Part shown: in pieces, positions 42,061 to 51,537 of the stretch | How the letters are laid out: every line of letters starts with the position of its first letter | Position numbering within the stretch: position 1 is the stretch's first letter | Source: Nitrospira sp. | GTDB lineage: Bacteria > Nitrospirota > Nitrospiria > Nitrospirales > Nitrospiraceae | DNA: 64,000 nt | Direction of reading: 5' to 3' | Assembly: GCA_005116955.1 (NCBI GenBank) | Contig: SWDI01000005.1 | Location: 776,683-840,682 of the forward strand | Position numbers and translations under genes: made by a program | The notes under the pieces: generated by a model | The model's database searches: none | Seen by the model: the letters and a program-made list of their open reading frames with translations, nothing else | What the model was told of the DNA's origin: nothing

Positions 42061-42864
42061 ATGAATATTCTGGATACGCTCACTCAATATGCCGTGCAGT
42101 ATGGGTTGCAGGCGGCGGTCGCGCTCGGCATCCTCATCGGCGGCATGATGGCGTCTCGTGGGGCCGCCAATTTTTCCCAACAGGCGCTCGAAAAGCAGAC
42201 CCTTGAGCCACCAGTGCGCATGCTCCTGGTGCGTATCGTGAAAATCATCGTCATACTGTTTACGGCGATGATCGCGCTCCAAACACTGGGTGTGCCCATT
42301 GCTCCGCTACTTGCCGGTGTTGGCGTCGCCGGTGTCGGTATTGGGTTGGCCTTGCAGGGGGTGTTGAGCAACGTGATGGCAGGGCTGTCGATTATCTTCA
42401 GTAAACCCTACAAGGTCGGCGAACATATCTCGCTGCTCGGAGTCCACGGGGATGTCGTGGTCATCGACATCTTCACGACGACACTGATGCACGCGGACCG
42501 ATCTCGCGTTATCATTCCCAACAGAAAAATCGTTGGGGAGATTCTGCACAACTTTGGAACAATCCGTCAGATGCATTTGACCGTTCCCGTGTCACCGAAC
42601 GCGAATCTTGATGAGGCCCTGGCTCAAGTTCGGGATGTCCTCAATCGGCATCCATCGGTTCTGAAAGACCCGGTTCCTTCAGTGGGAGTATCATCTCTCG
42701 GGGAATCGTCATTGACCGTGGCTATTGCCGCCGAGCCTTGGACGGCTGTGGCGGACTACAGTTCGACACAGAGCGAGTTGAATAAGTTGATTCTTCAACG
42801 ATTTCAAGAACGTGAGATTGCGCTACCCTCCGCAAGTCTTACCGTCCATGTGGTGAACAACTAA
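42061..42864 (+). CDS. MscS-type small-conductance mechanosensitive channel
   Basis: A 267-residue inner-membrane channel that releases solutes on hypo-osmotic stress. TM1-TM2 occupy about residues 15-75; the pore helix TM3 is VGVAGVGIGLALQGVLSNVMAGLSII, rich in Gly and Ala as in MscS. The beta domain (YKVGEHISLLGVHGDVVVIDIFTTTL, IPNRKIVGEILHNF) and an alpha-beta C-terminus follow. It is co-directional with the AsmA gene. An mscL gene lies near 51.1 kb. Confidence 0.92.
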   Translation: MNILDTLTQYAVQYGLQAAVALGILIGGMMASRGAANFSQQALEKQTLEPPVRMLLVRIVKIIVILFTAMIALQTLGVPIAPLLAGVGVAGVGIGLALQGVLSNVMAGLSIIFSKPYKVGEHISLLGVHGDVVVIDIFTTTLMHADRSRVIIPNRKIVGEILHNFGTIRQMHLTVPVSPNANLDEALAQVRDVLNRHPSVLKDPVPSVGVSSLGESSLTVAIAAEPWTAVADYSSTQSELNKLILQRFQEREIALPSASLTVHVVNN

Positions 42865-43104
42865 AAACCTCCGGTTCCCACCACAGCACTTCGCTTCTCG
42901 GGCGTTCTGCAGACACGTCACATTCAGTCTTGTTGATGGCGCTTCCCAGTGCTAGGATAGCACCTCTGTTGTTCGCGATTGTGATGAACGGAGAGGGAAG
43001 CGAACTATTTGCCGCCATCGAATCGAACGGCGGTCGATCGAGAGCGATGAGGAGTATGTCGTTACCGGGCTTGTTATCTCGTGGCCCCGACAGGAGGTGA
43101 GGCG

Positions 43105-43725
43105 ATGACTACATCACGTTCCGCCGATCAGCCCCTGATCGCCCGTGAAGACCCAACGACAGACCCTGACCGAGTCGGTGGGTTACCACACCCTGACGAT
43201 CGATCCGCAAGCGGGAACCTCGACAAGATTCGCGACATTCTCTTTGGCGCGCAAGCCCAAGAACATAACCGTCGGTTTGCTCAACTCGAACAGCATTTAA
43301 TCCGTGAAGCCTCGGACCTCCGCAACGATCTCAAGCGACGTTTTGAGAGCCTTGAGCGCTACATCAAGAAAGAAGTTGATGTGCTCACGAGCCGGTTGAC
43401 CAAGGAGCAGGAAGTTCGAGGGGAATCCGTCACGAACCTGACACAGGACCTCACCCAACTGGCTGCCACTCTTGAGGATAAAGCACGTCTGCTGGATATG
43501 CAGGCGACCCAAGTGCAAGCACATGTTCTCCAGCAGCTAACAGAACGGACGAGCGAGCTGGCGACCGACGTTCGAGATCGACATGCGGAGGCGGCGTCGG
43601 CACTCAATCAGGCCGTCCATGATCTCCGTGCGGAAAAGACGGATCGTGCGACGCTCGCAGCCATTTTATTGGAGGCATCTCAACGGCTATCCGATGAGGC
43701 GGTCTCCGGTCGCGGCTCAGCCTAA
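43105..43725 (+). CDS. Coiled-coil protein heading the GTPase/OmpA/sigma-54 operon
   Basis: A 206-residue soluble protein. After a polar N-terminus (about 50 residues), LFGAQAQEHNRRFAQLEQHLIREASDLRNDLKRRFESLERYIKKEV starts a long coiled coil that runs to the end. The segment I(R)DILFGAQ...HNRRFAQLE is a recognisable box in related proteins, but I cannot assign a function. A strong AGGAGGTGAGG fixes the ATG at 43105. It precedes the OmpA-domain gene by 63 bases. Confidence 0.75.
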   Translation: MTTSRSADQPLIAREDPTTDPDRVGGLPHPDDRSASGNLDKIRDILFGAQAQEHNRRFAQLEQHLIREASDLRNDLKRRFESLERYIKKEVDVLTSRLTKEQEVRGESVTNLTQDLTQLAATLEDKARLLDMQATQVQAHVLQQLTERTSELATDVRDRHAEAASALNQAVHDLRAEKTDRATLAAILLEASQRLSDEAVSGRGSA

Positions 43726-43788
43726 CAACAGTGGTCCGTGCGGCAGTCTCTTTGTGATCTATCGAGTCCATGACGATTGTGTTATCCC

Positions 43789-45561
43789 ATGTCTACCGAT
43801 CCACACAGGCCTCATCGCGATTCTCTATCTTCTGAAGGACGCACGTCTGTAGACGAAGACTGGACCCAGCTGCGCACTCTTTTACTCTCTCCGGAACAGA
43901 CCCAACTCGACGAAATCCGTGAACGGCTCGATAATCGAGGGATTCAGCCTCGTGAGATCAGTCGTGTGCTCCCCGAGGCGTTCGCCATGCGCGGCGAAAC
44001 CGACCAGCACCTCTCGAATGTACTCACCCCCTATGTGGAAAACGGATTTGTCGCGACCATACGAAAGTCGCCACGGACGATCGTCGATGCCATTGCCCCG
44101 ATCCTGGGGCCGGCCATTCGGCAGGCCATCGCGCGTGCGTTGCAAAGCATGACGCAGTCCTTTAACCACTCGTTGGATGAAAGCCTGTCCACCCGAGGCC
44201 TTCGCTGGCGATTGGAAGCCTGGCGGACAGGGCGGCCGTTCGCGGAGGTCGTACTTCTCCATACGCTCCGCTATCGCGTGGAACAAGTGTTTCTCATCCA
44301 TCGGGAGACAGGCCTTCTCCTGCATCACGTGGCAGCCGAGGGGGCTGTGGTCCAGGATCAGCAGATCTTGTCCGGCATGCTGACGGCGATTCAGAGCTAT
44401 GTGCGGGATTCGTTTGGCGCTTCACCGGACCAGACGTTGGACCATTTTCGAGTTGGTGAATGGACCGTGTGGATCGAACAGGGATCCCACGCCTACGTGG
44501 CCGGTGTCGTTCGGGGTACTCCCCCTGAAACCCTCAGAGAGGATTTCCAAGCCGCACTGGATGATATCCATGCGCAGCAACCCGATGCCTTGACTCATTT
44601 TGATGGAGACGCGGCGCCGTTTAAGACGACACAGACCTGCCTGGAAAGCTGTTTGCACGCCCACTATGAACCACCACCGCGACCCAGCGTCTTGAAGCTA
44701 TGGATTCTGGGCGGGGCGGTTATCCTCCTGCTCTCGTGGTGGGGCGTCATGGCCTACCAAGCCCACGTTCGGTGGTCCAATCTGCTGGTTGAGCTTGAGG
44801 CAGAGCCGGGCATCGTTGTGACCATGGCAGAATCAACGCTGACAGGCTATCACCTCAAGGGGTTGCGAGACCCCTTGGCCAAAGACCCTTCGGCGATAGT
44901 GGTTGAGGCTGGCCTTGAGCCATCGGGTATCAGAGCTGTCTGGTCTCCCTACTATTCGCTGGACCCTCAACTCGTTGAGACCAGAGCGCACTCGATATTA
45001 CACTCCCCCAAAACCGTTAAACTGTCAGTGGAGGGAGACACGCTTGTCGCAACTGGCGCGGCTTCCATCGAGTGGGCTCGAGAGACGAGACGGTTGGCTA
45101 CCCTGGTGCCGGGAATCTCCCGCTACCGTGACGAGGGGCTCGTCACGATCTCCATCCCGGATCTCCTCGAACGCGTCAATCAAACTATCGTTCGCTTTCG
45201 CTCAGGGTCCTCGATAGTGGAACCATCGGAACGTGCAGCACTTGGTGCCGTGTCTATGGCGTTACGAGAGCTGGACCAAGCCGTATCGCAATCAGGCCAG
45301 CGAGTGAGGCTCGAAGTACTGGGGTCGACCGACGACACTGGTTCTGTGACACGCAATATTCAGCTGAGCGAGGAACGAGCCCGCGCCGTGCTCGTGGCCC
45401 TCGGAGGGGAGCAACTTGGTGACGCCACGACCGTCATTGCGGGTAGTGTGCAATCTACTGACCAGCGGGGCTCAACAGGAGAAGCCCGGGACCGGCGGAT
45501 CGTCACGTTGCGAGCCACCCTCACGGTCGCGAATCGAGGGAATGAGGCGTCTCGTCCATGA
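43789..45561 (+). CDS. Membrane-anchored OmpA-domain protein
   Basis: A 590-residue protein: the cytoplasmic N-terminal half (to about residue 300) ends at one transmembrane helix (LWILGGAVILLLSWWGVMAY). The periplasmic part then has a BON-like stretch (VTMAESTLTGYHLKGLRDPLA, TVKLSVEGDTLVATG) and ends with an OmpA/MotB peptidoglycan-binding domain (RLEVLGSTDDTGSVTRNIQLSEERA). It would link a cytoplasmic signal to the cell wall. Its stop overlaps the GTPase start (ATGA), so the GTPase is a likely partner for the N-terminal half. Confidence 0.8.
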   Translation: MSTDPHRPHRDSLSSEGRTSVDEDWTQLRTLLLSPEQTQLDEIRERLDNRGIQPREISRVLPEAFAMRGETDQHLSNVLTPYVENGFVATIRKSPRTIVDAIAPILGPAIRQAIARALQSMTQSFNHSLDESLSTRGLRWRLEAWRTGRPFAEVVLLHTLRYRVEQVFLIHRETGLLLHHVAAEGAVVQDQQILSGMLTAIQSYVRDSFGASPDQTLDHFRVGEWTVWIEQGSHAYVAGVVRGTPPETLREDFQAALDDIHAQQPDALTHFDGDAAPFKTTQTCLESCLHAHYEPPPRPSVLKLWILGGAVILLLSWWGVMAYQAHVRWSNLLVELEAEPGIVVTMAESTLTGYHLKGLRDPLAKDPSAIVVEAGLEPSGIRAVWSPYYSLDPQLVETRAHSILHSPKTVKLSVEGDTLVATGAASIEWARETRRLATLVPGISRYRDEGLVTISIPDLLERVNQTIVRFRSGSSIVEPSERAALGAVSMALRELDQAVSQSGQRVRLEVLGSTDDTGSVTRNIQLSEERARAVLVALGGEQLGDATTVIAGSVQSTDQRGSTGEARDRRIVTLRATLTVANRGNEASRP

Positions 45562-46079
45562 TGCAGAAGAAAGTCTGCATGTTGGGTGGATTCGCGGTTG
45601 GAAAGACCAGCCTCGTGCGCCGATTTGTGAGTAATGTGTTTTCTGAGCACTATCACACGACGATCGGCGTGACCGTGGAGAAGAAGAGTGTCAAGATCGA
45701 CGACCGGGACGTGACGCTGGTGCTGTGGGATCTCTATGGAGAAGACGAGTTTCAACGAGTGCGCGACTCGTATCTTCGCGGTTCATCCGGCTACATCTTG
45801 GTCATGGATGGTACCAGACGAGCGACCTTGGACACGGCACTCGCGCTACGGCAGACCGCCATGCGAACAGTGGGAACGGTTCCCTTCATCGCGATCATCA
45901 ATAAAGCGGATGTTCGCTCTGAGTGGGAAATCGATGAGCGTGCGATCGAACAGCTGCGTGAACAAGGCTGGACGGTCCTGTTCGGTAGTGCCAAGCTTGG
46001 GCAGGGAGTCGAAGAGTTATTTGTGACGCTGGCAACCCAGATCGTACAGACATCTCCGATCCCCAGTGATTCGTTATGA
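45558..46079 (+). CDS. Ras/Rab-like small GTPase
   Basis: A 173-residue single-domain GTPase of the eukaryote-like small G protein type found in some bacteria. P-loop G10-GFAV-G15-K16-T17, switch I T35 in TTIGVT, G3 D58-L-Y-G61, G4 NKAD and G5 SAK are all present. The residue after G61 is Glu62 where Ras has the catalytic Gln61, which may slow hydrolysis. No lipid-modification cysteine is seen. It overlaps the genes on either side by ATGA, so it is translationally coupled to a membrane OmpA protein and a sigma-54 activator. Confidence 0.88.
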   Translation: MMQKKVCMLGGFAVGKTSLVRRFVSNVFSEHYHTTIGVTVEKKSVKIDDRDVTLVLWDLYGEDEFQRVRDSYLRGSSGYILVMDGTRRATLDTALALRQTAMRTVGTVPFIAIINKADVRSEWEIDERAIEQLREQGWTVLFGSAKLGQGVEELFVTLATQIVQTSPIPSDSL

Positions 46080-47878
46080 AAAGCTGGCCAGGCAACCTCG
46101 CATTGCACAACGAGTCCCTATTCAATGCGGTTCTCTCCACTCTCGACATGGCGGTGTTTGAGCGCGAGGAGGATTCGGCCGAGTTTCGGCTTCAAGGTCT
46201 CCCGCCTGACTGGTGGCACCTGTGGGTCGGTCCGGCGAACGGTACGGTGCTAGACCTGGGCCAATGCTCGCCGTTCCTGCGGGATTATCTTGTCGGGGCT
46301 CACCCAATCTGGGAAGGTCAGTCGGGCGCGACTGAGAAGTCGGGCCCATGGACGGAACCTGATCGGCAGGGTGGCACCATGACACTGGAGGCTACCGCGC
46401 TGTTGATTGGGTCCAAGAAGTTGTTACTCATTGAGCGTCTTGGTTCTGGCTTCGAGGAGATGGGGGCCATCGTTCAGCGGGCACGGGAACGCATGCTGGC
46501 CGAAGAACGTACCGCGAAGTCCTACCGTAAGACTGAGACACGCTTGATCAGTGAGCTTGAAGCCAGCGAACGCACAAAGGACGATGCGCTGGCTCTGCTT
46601 CAGCACCTCGGGCTCGCCGCATTGGTTCTCGATGAGCGCGGACACATCACGTTCGCCAGCGATCGTGGGCTTGAGATCCTGGGAATGACGGCTGAAGCTG
46701 TGATCGGCCAGGAGTGGGAGCAAGCACTCCCGCTTCACAAGCAAGATCGTGTGCCGATTCGAGAGCTGATCGATACTGCCTCGGACCCACGAAAGACTTG
46801 CGTAGCGCGCATCGAAGGACCTCGCCCCCGTTGGGTTGAGATAGAAGTCCATGGAGATCCGCGCCACCCCGGTCGGCATATCGTCATCGTGCATGACCGC
46901 ACCGAGCTTCATGCACTCCGCCGGGTGCTCAACGAGCAGGCGTCGTTTCATGATCTGGTGGGGAAGAGTCCCACCATGCTTCGCACGTACCAACTTGTGC
47001 GAGACGTGGCGCAGGTCGATACCACCGTGTTGATCGAAGGGGAAACGGGAACCGGGAAAGAGCTCATCGCGCGTGCCATCCATTCTTGCAGCGGCCGAAA
47101 ACATAAGCCATTCATCGCCGCCAATTGCGCGGGATTAACCGACTCGATTCTGACGAGCCAACTCTTCGGCCACAAGCGTGGAGCCTTTACCGGGGCGGTG
47201 AATGATCAGCAAGGATTATTCGAAGCCGCAGAGGGTGGTACGTTGTTCCTCGACGAAATCGGGGATATTCCACCGCAAGTCCAAACGGCTCTCTTGCGGG
47301 TGTTGCAGGAAAAGGAGATCACCCGTCTGGGAGAGGCCAAGCCTCGCAAAGTCGATGTGCGTGTCGTGGCGGCCACCCACCATAACTTGAGTGAAGACGT
47401 CGTTCGTGGGTCCTTCCGAGCGGATCTGCTCTACCGAATTCGTATCGCCAGAGTCCAGCTTCCCCCTTTACGTGAACGACGCGAGGACATCCCGCTGCTT
47501 GCCCAATCCTTTCTTGGACAGATCTGCACCGCCACTGGAAAGACAATCGAGCGCCTGAATCCCGATACCCTTCGGCTTCTCATGAGTCACGCATGGCCCG
47601 GTAATGTGCGTGAACTGAAGAGTGCCATCGAATTTGCAGTGATCAGCTGTAAGGCGAAAGAGGTTCTTCCCATTGATCTCCCGCCGGAGATCAACAATGC
47701 CCCCGTTGTCCCAAGTTCTTCCGTGTGGATCCCGTTGCCGAACCGGGACGAGAAATCGCGATTCCTCGCGGCGCTTTCCGACGCCAAAGGCAATCGGACG
47801 GAGGCCGCCAGACGGCTGGGAGTGAGCAGGGCGACGTTCTATCGCCGCCTCGTCGAGCTAGATATCGATCCTCGCTAG
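46076..47878 (+). CDS. PAS-AAA+-Fis sigma-54-dependent transcription activator
   Basis: A 600-residue enhancer-binding protein. An unknown N-terminal domain (about 1-130) precedes a coiled coil (about 125-170), a PAS domain (HLGLAALVLDERGHITFASDRGLEILGMTAE) and the AAA+ core with Walker A GETGTGKE (322-329), GAFTGA (369-374) and DEIGDIPPQ. The C-terminal Fis helix-turn-helix is KGNRTEAARRLGVSRATFYRRL. It opens sigma-54 promoters using ATP. Starting by ATGA on the GTPase stop, it may be controlled by the membrane protein and GTPase. Candidate binding sites lie just downstream. Confidence 0.92.
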   Translation: MKSWPGNLALHNESLFNAVLSTLDMAVFEREEDSAEFRLQGLPPDWWHLWVGPANGTVLDLGQCSPFLRDYLVGAHPIWEGQSGATEKSGPWTEPDRQGGTMTLEATALLIGSKKLLLIERLGSGFEEMGAIVQRARERMLAEERTAKSYRKTETRLISELEASERTKDDALALLQHLGLAALVLDERGHITFASDRGLEILGMTAEAVIGQEWEQALPLHKQDRVPIRELIDTASDPRKTCVARIEGPRPRWVEIEVHGDPRHPGRHIVIVHDRTELHALRRVLNEQASFHDLVGKSPTMLRTYQLVRDVAQVDTTVLIEGETGTGKELIARAIHSCSGRKHKPFIAANCAGLTDSILTSQLFGHKRGAFTGAVNDQQGLFEAAEGGTLFLDEIGDIPPQVQTALLRVLQEKEITRLGEAKPRKVDVRVVAATHHNLSEDVVRGSFRADLLYRIRIARVQLPPLRERREDIPLLAQSFLGQICTATGKTIERLNPDTLRLLMSHAWPGNVRELKSAIEFAVISCKAKEVLPIDLPPEINNAPVVPSSSVWIPLPNRDEKSRFLAALSDAKGNRTEAARRLGVSRATFYRRLVELDIDPR

Positions 47879-47999: not shown

Positions 48000-48046
48000 T
48001 GTCTCACGAGCAGGGCATCTGTCTCGTGAGACATTCCGTTGTCTCA
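48000..48046 (+). promoter_or_regulatory. TGTCTCA/TGAGACA inverted repeats, likely activator sites
   Basis: TGTCTCACGAG (48000-48010) and CTCGTGAGACA (48023-48033) are perfect inverted copies. A third half site TGTCTCA follows at 48040-48046. The cluster lies 90-145 bases before the sigma-54 promoter, the usual distance for an enhancer. The region from 47879 to 48223 holds no gene. Confidence 0.65.
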
Positions 48047-48131
48047 TTCCGACACAACGCAGACGGTCTCGCCAATCCGTCCATTCAATGCAGCCGATTG
48101 ATTATATGGAGGCCGTCACTCGTTTAGAGAT

Positions 48132-48147
48132 GTGGCACAAGGGTTGT
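48132..48147 (+). promoter_or_regulatory. Sigma-54 (-24/-12) promoter
   Basis: GTGGCACAAGGGTTGT matches the TGGCAC-N5-TTGC consensus, with GT for the -12 GC. The start would be near 48158, giving a leader of about 65 bases to the next ATG. Confidence 0.6.
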
Positions 48148-48223
48148 AGTAGTGCCACGCCATCAAGAGGAAGTCGGCAGTATCCGTTGCACTTGGAACT
48201 TGAAACCGCCGAGGTAAAGAAGT

Positions 48224-48535
48224 ATGACCACACCAGGGCTACTCGTCGAAGACTACAACGGACAGGACTACCTGCTGACCACGGAATCTCGCGTGGGAGT
48301 GAACACTCATCAATTGGTCGTGCTGCAACGCGTGAATGGGAAATGGAAGTATGTGAATGGAGTCAAGGAAACGGCTTGTCGCGAATTGCTGATCGGTGCA
48401 TTCGTCGATTTCCTTGTGGATATCTGTAGGGTGTTGAATGCGTCCGGCTCTGACCGGACTGTTGGGATCGCCGCAAGGTCAGGTCGATCTCGCGCACGAC
48501 GCGCATCCCCACTCAAGCCCATGAGGGCTGTGTAG
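48224..48535 (+). CDS. Small protein of unknown function under a sigma-54 promoter
   Basis: A 103-residue protein whose first about 70 residues look genuine (LLVEDYNGQDYLLTTESRVGVNTHQLVVLQRVNGKWKYVNG), while the last 30 are basic and low in complexity. GAGG lies nine bases before the ATG. Family unknown. Its value is that it is the first gene after the activator sites and the sigma-54 promoter. Confidence 0.5.
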   Translation: MTTPGLLVEDYNGQDYLLTTESRVGVNTHQLVVLQRVNGKWKYVNGVKETACRELLIGAFVDFLVDICRVLNASGSDRTVGIAARSGRSRARRASPLKPMRAV

Positions 48536-48994: not shown

Positions 48995-49693
48995 ATGGAC
49001 AAACTCACTGGAAGACGAGAACCGATTCGTGTGTTGCTGATCGATGATTCCATGCTGACTCTGCATGGGCTTAAGACCTTCCTCTCCACAATCCGTCATG
49101 TCGAAATTCTGGGCATTGCTCGTATTCCCTCCGAAGCCTTAGACGCGATACGGGTACACCAGCCAGATGTCGTGATGTTGGAGACTCGCGTGGGGCAAGT
49201 AAGTGGAATCGACTTGTGTAGAACCATCCGTGAGTCATATCCCACCATCGGCGTGCTCTTTTTTACGGCGCATGACGATAAGGAGATCCTACGAGCAGCA
49301 ATCATGGCCGATGCGCACGGCTACCTGCTGAAGGGCGCAGCGGCTGAGGCGGTTGCGAGGAGTATCGAGATTATTGCGAGTGGGAGGGCGATCATGGATC
49401 AGCAGTTGACTCAGCAAGTCATCACATGGGCTCGGGATGGGGCGTTGGCTGGACAAGAGCGGATCCCCTATAGCTGCTCGAAAGACGATCGGCAGCTGCT
49501 CTCTCTGGTGGCCCAAGGGAAGACAAACAAGGAGATTGCACAAGAATTGGATCTTGTGCCTCGTGTGGTGGCCACTCGCTTACAAAGAATCTACAAGCGT
49601 TTGAAGATATCCAGACGATCCGAGGCGGCACGCTACTATGTACAGTTGGAAAAGGATCCGCATGGACTTGAAGGCGTGGCCCATCAAAACTAG
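48995..49693 (+). CDS. NarL/FixJ-type response regulator with Glu in place of the phospho-acceptor Asp
   Basis: A 232-residue regulator. The receiver domain (about 10-130) keeps the acidic pair DD (17-18), Thr in FFTAHDD and Lys in YLLKGAA, but the acceptor position in VVMLETRVGQVSG is Glu63 rather than Asp. Glu at this site often mimics phosphorylation, so it may be always active or unable to accept phosphate. The LuxR helix-turn-helix is DRQLLSLVAQGKTNKEIAQEL through VVATRLQRIYKRLKI. It has no adjacent kinase. Confidence 0.88.
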   Translation: MDKLTGRREPIRVLLIDDSMLTLHGLKTFLSTIRHVEILGIARIPSEALDAIRVHQPDVVMLETRVGQVSGIDLCRTIRESYPTIGVLFFTAHDDKEILRAAIMADAHGYLLKGAAAEAVARSIEIIASGRAIMDQQLTQQVITWARDGALAGQERIPYSCSKDDRQLLSLVAQGKTNKEIAQELDLVPRVVATRLQRIYKRLKISRRSEAARYYVQLEKDPHGLEGVAHQN

Positions 49694-51114: not shown

Positions 51115-51537
51115 ATGCTGAAAGAGTTCAAAGAGTTCGCCATGAAGGGGAATGTCCTGGATATGGCCATTGGCGTCATCATCGGTGGCGCATTCGGGAA
51201 GATCGTGTCGTCACTGGTCAGCGACGTGCTGATGCCGCCCATTGGGTTACTGATGGGCAAGGTGGATTTCTCCAGTCTGTTCGTCGATCTGTCTAGAACA
51301 GCACCTCCATCCTTAGCCGCGGCGAAAGCAGCCGGGGCTCCAACGCTGAACTATGGCGTTTTTCTACAAAGCGTCTTCGACTTCATTATTGTCGCCTTCG
51401 TCATCTTCATGTTGGTCAAACAGGTGAATCGATTTAAGAAAGAAGCGCCTGCAGCCCCACCGCCGCCTCCCCCGGCGCCGAGCAATGAGGAGAAGTTGTT
51501 GACGGAAATCCGCGATCTCCTCAAGCACCGTCAATGA
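51115..51537 (+). CDS. mscL: Large-conductance mechanosensitive channel MscL
   Basis: A 140-residue homopentameric inner-membrane channel that opens at extreme membrane tension. The N-terminal helix and TM1 ([31 protein letters not shown]) carry the pore-lining Gly/Ala pattern; TM2 is [20 protein letters not shown], followed by KQVNRFKKE and a Pro-rich linker ([10 protein letters not shown]) to the C-terminal bundle. AAGGAGG precedes the ATG. Confidence 0.96.

Follow-up and report, generated by a model that had tools for sequence, protein, structure and literature searches.

A Predicted Enhancer Array and Sigma-54-Type Promoter Directly behind the Gene for a Sigma-54 Activator in Nitrospira sp.

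Results

The window, by which we mean the whole stretch of 64,000 nucleotides of Nitrospira sp. DNA that was analysed, contains a gene for a sigma-54 enhancer-binding protein, which closes a run of four genes that overlap or stand close together. An array of repeats lies directly 3' of this gene (46076-47878), upstream of a match to a sigma-54-type promoter. The genes and features are as follows.

43081-43725, + strand: coiled-coil-type protein, first gene of the Rup operon; open reading frame with uncertain start codon, kept at this position in 21 loci (cluster c5), coiled coil assigned by visual inspection
43777-45561, + strand: membrane protein with C-terminal OmpA-type domain (PF00691, E=6.7e-6, just under the curated cut-off); 28 loci
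45558-46079, + strand: Ras-like small GTPase, Group 1 Rup type (PF00071, E=3.1e-31); 25 loci
46076-47878, + strand: sigma-54 enhancer-binding protein (PF08448; PF00158, E=3.5e-67; PF02954, E=1.9e-9)
48000-48013, + strand: predicted operator site A, TGTCTCACGAGCAG; left half kept among relatives
48020-48033, + strand: predicted operator site B, 14-bp palindrome TGTCTCRTGAGACA = TGTCTCGTGAGACA; best kept site
48040-48056, + strand: predicted operator site C, TGTCTCATTCCGACACA; looser palindrome
48091-48103, - strand: IHF-like site AATCAATCGGCTG, differing from WATCAANNNNTTR at one position; lies between the array and the promoter
48133-48147, + strand: sigma-54-type promoter (-24/-12), TGGCAC-AAGGG-TTGT = TGGCACAAGGGTTGT; GGC and TTG invariant in 18 loci
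48224-48535, + strand: predicted target gene 1, 103-aa protein; first behind the promoter, secondary structure predicted as four strands plus one helix
48576-48812, + strand: predicted target gene 2, 78-aa CxxC...CxxC zinc-ribbon-like protein
48995-49693, + strand: probable target gene 3, receiver-LuxR response regulator (PF00072, PF00196); conserved downstream in Nitrospira loci

The activator has an N-terminal domain, a PAS domain, an AAA+ domain with the GAFTGA motif and a C-terminal Fis-type helix-turn-helix (HTH); the last two are the marks of an enhancer-binding protein, and sigma-54 is encoded in the same genome (rpoN, PF04552, E=1.2e-58, at C3:201212). Behind its gene are three sites of the TGTCTC type, which begin at intervals of 20 bp (48000, 48020 and 48040); the central one, the palindrome TGTCTC-N2-GAGACA, is flanked by half-palindromic copies 20-22 bp away. 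The predicted operator unit is this 14-bp palindrome together with the two flanking sites. The original prediction had described the array differently, as a perfect inverted repeat plus a third half site about 100 bases upstream of a sigma-54 promoter. The distance held, the palindrome lying 99 bp from TGGCAC, and the repeat (TGTCTCACGAG at 48000-48010 and CTCGTGAGACA at 48023-48033) and the third TGTCTC (48040-48045) are both present; the inner pairs of the 11-bp repeat, however, are not kept. The two arms of the repeat are the left half of site A and the right half of site B; the innermost three pairs are retained in 6, 9 and 9 of 18 loci, and no covariation of the inner pairs beyond that of shuffles was found in these loci. 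Judged from this comparison, it is partly by coincidence that this genome shows an 11-bp inverted repeat.

The promoter match agrees exactly with the TGGCAC/TTGC consensus in its -24 element and 5-base spacing; its -12 element is TTGT rather than the canonical TTGC, as in most near Nitrospira loci, and TTGC occurs in the Methylobacter loci L143 and L144. (With one extra leading base position the match reads GTGGCACAAGGGTTGT, at 48132-48147.) In near relatives the -24/-12 promoter lies at a nearly fixed distance from the sites. The -24 element is also one arm of an inverted repeat GTGGCAC/GTGCCAC (window 48132-48158), and in L116 and L119 the arms reach 13 and 11 bp, with one position changing on both sides together. 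As a general feature this repeat was rejected, being strong in a few loci only. The IHF-like site has a place and strand common to many relatives and is absent in others; by a script's count, 18 of 37 loci have it with no more than one mismatch. It is suggestive only, and it is not general.

The first gene after the promoter encodes a 103-aa protein present in 24 of 59 genus genomes, whose model shows a long helix and four strands. It matched no Pfam or NCBIfam family above threshold, and a fold search returned nothing convincing (Foldseek best E 0.16; best Z 4.7 over 41 residues). In other Nitrospirales, weak relatives of the zinc-ribbon protein are also encoded behind the array. The LuxR-type regulator is probably co-transcribed with these two genes, and as a target it would make the system a cascade.

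Comparison with relatives showed which parts of this region are conserved. Behind the orthologous Nitrospira gene the intergenic DNA has diverged and the array and promoter are kept; the kept positions are TGTCTCATGAGACA, the central palindrome; site A in its left half; site C in part; and the GGC and TTG of the promoter. At least two half-sites were found within 300 bp after the activator stop codon in 21 of 24 near-group Nitrospira loci, and within 300 bp downstream in all six loci of a more distant Nitrospira group and all four Methylobacter loci, against a background of 1.2% of 756 windows for the near group and 0-2% across these groups. Behind distant activators none of 28 loci had them. 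More distant relatives carry the same half-site in other arrangements, for example as 11-bp direct repeats in Methylobacter and other Nitrospirales, and these too lie mostly upstream of a -24/-12 promoter. Many of the compared loci come from metagenome assemblies. Among 35 genus genomes, the 14 with an orthologue of at least 71% identity all had the array (E below 1e-9); none of the 16 without an orthologue gave a profile match better than E=1e-3; and the remaining five had a relative of 53-55% identity with visible half-sites that the profile scored poorly. Two genomes have a second array, directly before the same small-protein gene.

A tree of 93 activators placed every one of the 38 that have at least two half-sites inside one clade of 49 (support 100/99), a clustering that near-copies inflate; the spread over phyla, which takes in Nitrospirota, Methylobacter, an acidobacterium and a planctomycete, is independent of near-copies. 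Within this clade the N-terminal sensor parts vary (Rup-linked domain, receiver domain, PAS arrays, propeller sensor), as does the downstream gene set between phyla; the AAA+ and HTH part and the sites stay linked. The original prediction had the repeats as enhancer sites through which the adjacent activator would drive the small genes that follow. This is the best-supported reading: the sites track the activator clade across phyla, they stand at a nearly constant distance from a -24/-12 promoter in the near relatives, the genome has rpoN, and in most near Nitrospira loci the promoter is followed first by the gene for a small, conserved protein. A few clade members have no visible sites or no recognisable promoter (L129-L132; L111, L142). 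In L121 and L142 the activator copies have a tail out of frame, and L111 has sites without a recognisable promoter; these three are perhaps decaying second copies. In the Methylobacter loci L139, L143, L144 and L150, half-sites behind a PAS-type activator of the clade precede genes for secreted-looking proteins, the two of which that were scanned had no Pfam family.

We then asked how far the array extends beyond this locus. The original prediction had envisaged a multi-promoter regulon, to be listed by scanning the genome for the repeats near sigma-54 promoters; none was found, and the repeats are largely absent from other sigma-54 promoters of the genome. The pattern TGTCTC-N14/15-TGTCTC (a repeat at 20-21 bp) occurs three times in the 3.65-Mb genome, two of these being the array itself. 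An array profile, derived from 18 related loci and giving rough E-values, matched its own locus at E=4.9e-13 and its next-best place at 0.009; the own-locus score is partly by construction because the locus helped to build the profile, and the missing second strong match is unaffected by this. Neither search found a second copy of the array in the genome, and the idea of a genome-wide regulon was rejected on these searches. Thirty of 84 promoter-like genome sites were inspected, two of them with a single distant half-site; those that lacked a locus were screened only through the pattern and profile searches. Only one of the genome's 18 full activators, that of the window, combines the array with the recognition helix SRATFYRR; the other 17 have no array alongside and a different helix. 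The scarcity of the repeats at other sigma-54 promoters thus points to a local, single-target switch and leaves the enhancer idea intact; the activator seems to serve one adjacent promoter, as a dedicated switch and not as a regulon hub.

Two other sequences came up in the genome G000. Looser palindromes of a similar kind, GTCTCACATGAGACA and TGTATCACCTCGATACA, stand at G000:C5:404263-404312 (L265, L269) before an orphan receiver-domain gene, accompanied by a conserved GG-N10-GC promoter-like sequence, TGGAATGGACGTTGC; as this set is kept in Nitrospira genomes that lack our activator, it is probably bound by another protein. The sequence TGGCATCCACATTGC, at 8-22 of the window (- strand), recurs at 11 further places, and the identical letters of its 12 copies suggest a repeated or mobile element rather than promoters.

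Discussion

The sites, the promoter and the activator gene together are very probably the parts of one circuit, in which the array is the upstream activating sequence of the preceding activator and drives the downstream genes, with a signal that probably comes from the GTPase operon. We propose that the three TGTCTC/GAGACA dyads would be occupied by Fis-type HTH dimers on one face of the DNA, as the 20-bp spacing would allow, and that the AAA+ ring, perhaps aided by an IHF-type bend, would touch the sigma-54 polymerase at 48133-48147 and open the promoter at the cost of ATP. The transcript would extend over the genes for the 103-aa and zinc-ribbon proteins and probably over that for the LuxR-type regulator. 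We infer binding, activation, operon extent and GTPase control from the sequence, the last of these from the operon alone.

Real operators need not be bound by the neighbouring activator, which could be a bystander if the main binding protein were the downstream LuxR-type regulator or another sigma-54 activator. The LuxR-type regulator gene does lie inside the target region, and the similar sites before the unlinked receiver-domain gene, which persist in genomes without this activator, indicate that a different protein can use such sites. Activator and sites remain, however, in Methylobacter, the acidobacterium and the planctomycete, where no LuxR-type relative was found nearby, and the sites follow the activator clade, with the array beside none of the other 17 activators; we therefore regard another main binder as improbable. 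Still less probable is that the inverted repeat acts at the RNA level, terminating or attenuating transcription behind the activator gene: the window strand folds better than shuffles (z -4.2), but no terminator-like site was found on the array strand and no Rfam match, the inner pairs are not kept and show no covariation, and the rearrangement of the half-sites into direct and inverted repeats in relatives suits protein-bound DNA. Chance deserves hardly any credence as the source of the repeats and promoter match: taken one by one, both motifs occur in the window at chance rates (with up to one mismatch allowed, 5 promoter matches where 4.6 were expected; with up to three, 29 single palindrome matches where 30.8 were expected), but their arrangement is far above chance and is kept across phyla, a conservation that already contradicts this explanation.

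For an upstream activating sequence read by the preceding activator, the signal would probably come from the GTPase operon, whose Ras-like GTPase and OmpA-domain protein, the latter anchored in the envelope, would control the state of the activator's N-terminal domain. The GTPase gene overlaps its neighbours by ATGA. Its G3 motif, DLYGE (DLYGD or DLHGE in relatives), lacks the catalytic Gln, and its coiled-coil and OmpA-domain neighbours stand in kept order, as in Group 1 Rup operons. A tentative proposal, which we hold to be quite possible and somewhat short of probable, is that the GTPase receives its input from the envelope protein and acts directly as the gate on the AAA+ activity of a single-promoter sigma-54 activator. 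If true, it would give a complete pathway from envelope to promoter in one block of about 6.5 kb. The output of this Ras-like GTPase was previously not known. It is presumed to be a promoter whose predicted enhancer sites are mapped, so that the pathway should be readable with a simple reporter. The activator clade, crossing phyla and defined by its operator, would also let targets be predicted in uncultured nitrifiers. Upstream of the block lies a gene for a possible MscS-like protein (42061-42864, by eye) and downstream one for an MscL channel (51115-51537), and OmpA-type and DUF481 envelope proteins accompany these flanking genes. What is signalled may be the state of the envelope or the osmotic state.

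Activators of the NtrC, NifA and NorR type have an AAA+ domain with GAFTGA and a Fis-type HTH, and bind dyads 100-150 bp upstream of a -24/-12 promoter. The system described here is like them in its AAA+ GAFTGA domain, its Fis-type HTH and its predicted dyad sites upstream of a -24/-12-type promoter. The operator here, TGTCTC-N2-GAGACA, is unlike the TGT-N10-ACA of NifA sites and the TGCACC type of NtrC sites, and the activator scored far below the NifA and NtrC equivalog cut-offs (331 of 528.9 bits and 315 of 558.6 bits). PMC7057263 gives a general account of sigma-54 activators.

Group 1 Rup GTPases were experimentally uncharacterised as of 2014, and the outputs of their operons are typically c-di-GMP enzymes or histidine kinases (PMC4316618, Wuichet and Sogaard-Andersen 2014). 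The text of that paper does not mention sigma factors, and a literature search by the name Group 1 Rup gave no account beyond it. Group 1 Rup outputs carry an invariant Gln in the N-terminal region (PMC4316618); a candidate Gln in the window's activator (LDLGQCSPFL) is Arg in some orthologues and is unmatched to the paper's position. The operon is like those of PMC4316618 in its coiled-coil protein, its OmpA-domain membrane protein and its GTPase without the G3 glutamine, followed by an output protein. It differs from them in that the output protein is a sigma-54 activator with what appear to be its own enhancer and promoter. As this is neither a c-di-GMP enzyme nor a histidine kinase, and the paper says "typically", we regard the locus as a variant of the Group 1 Rup system.
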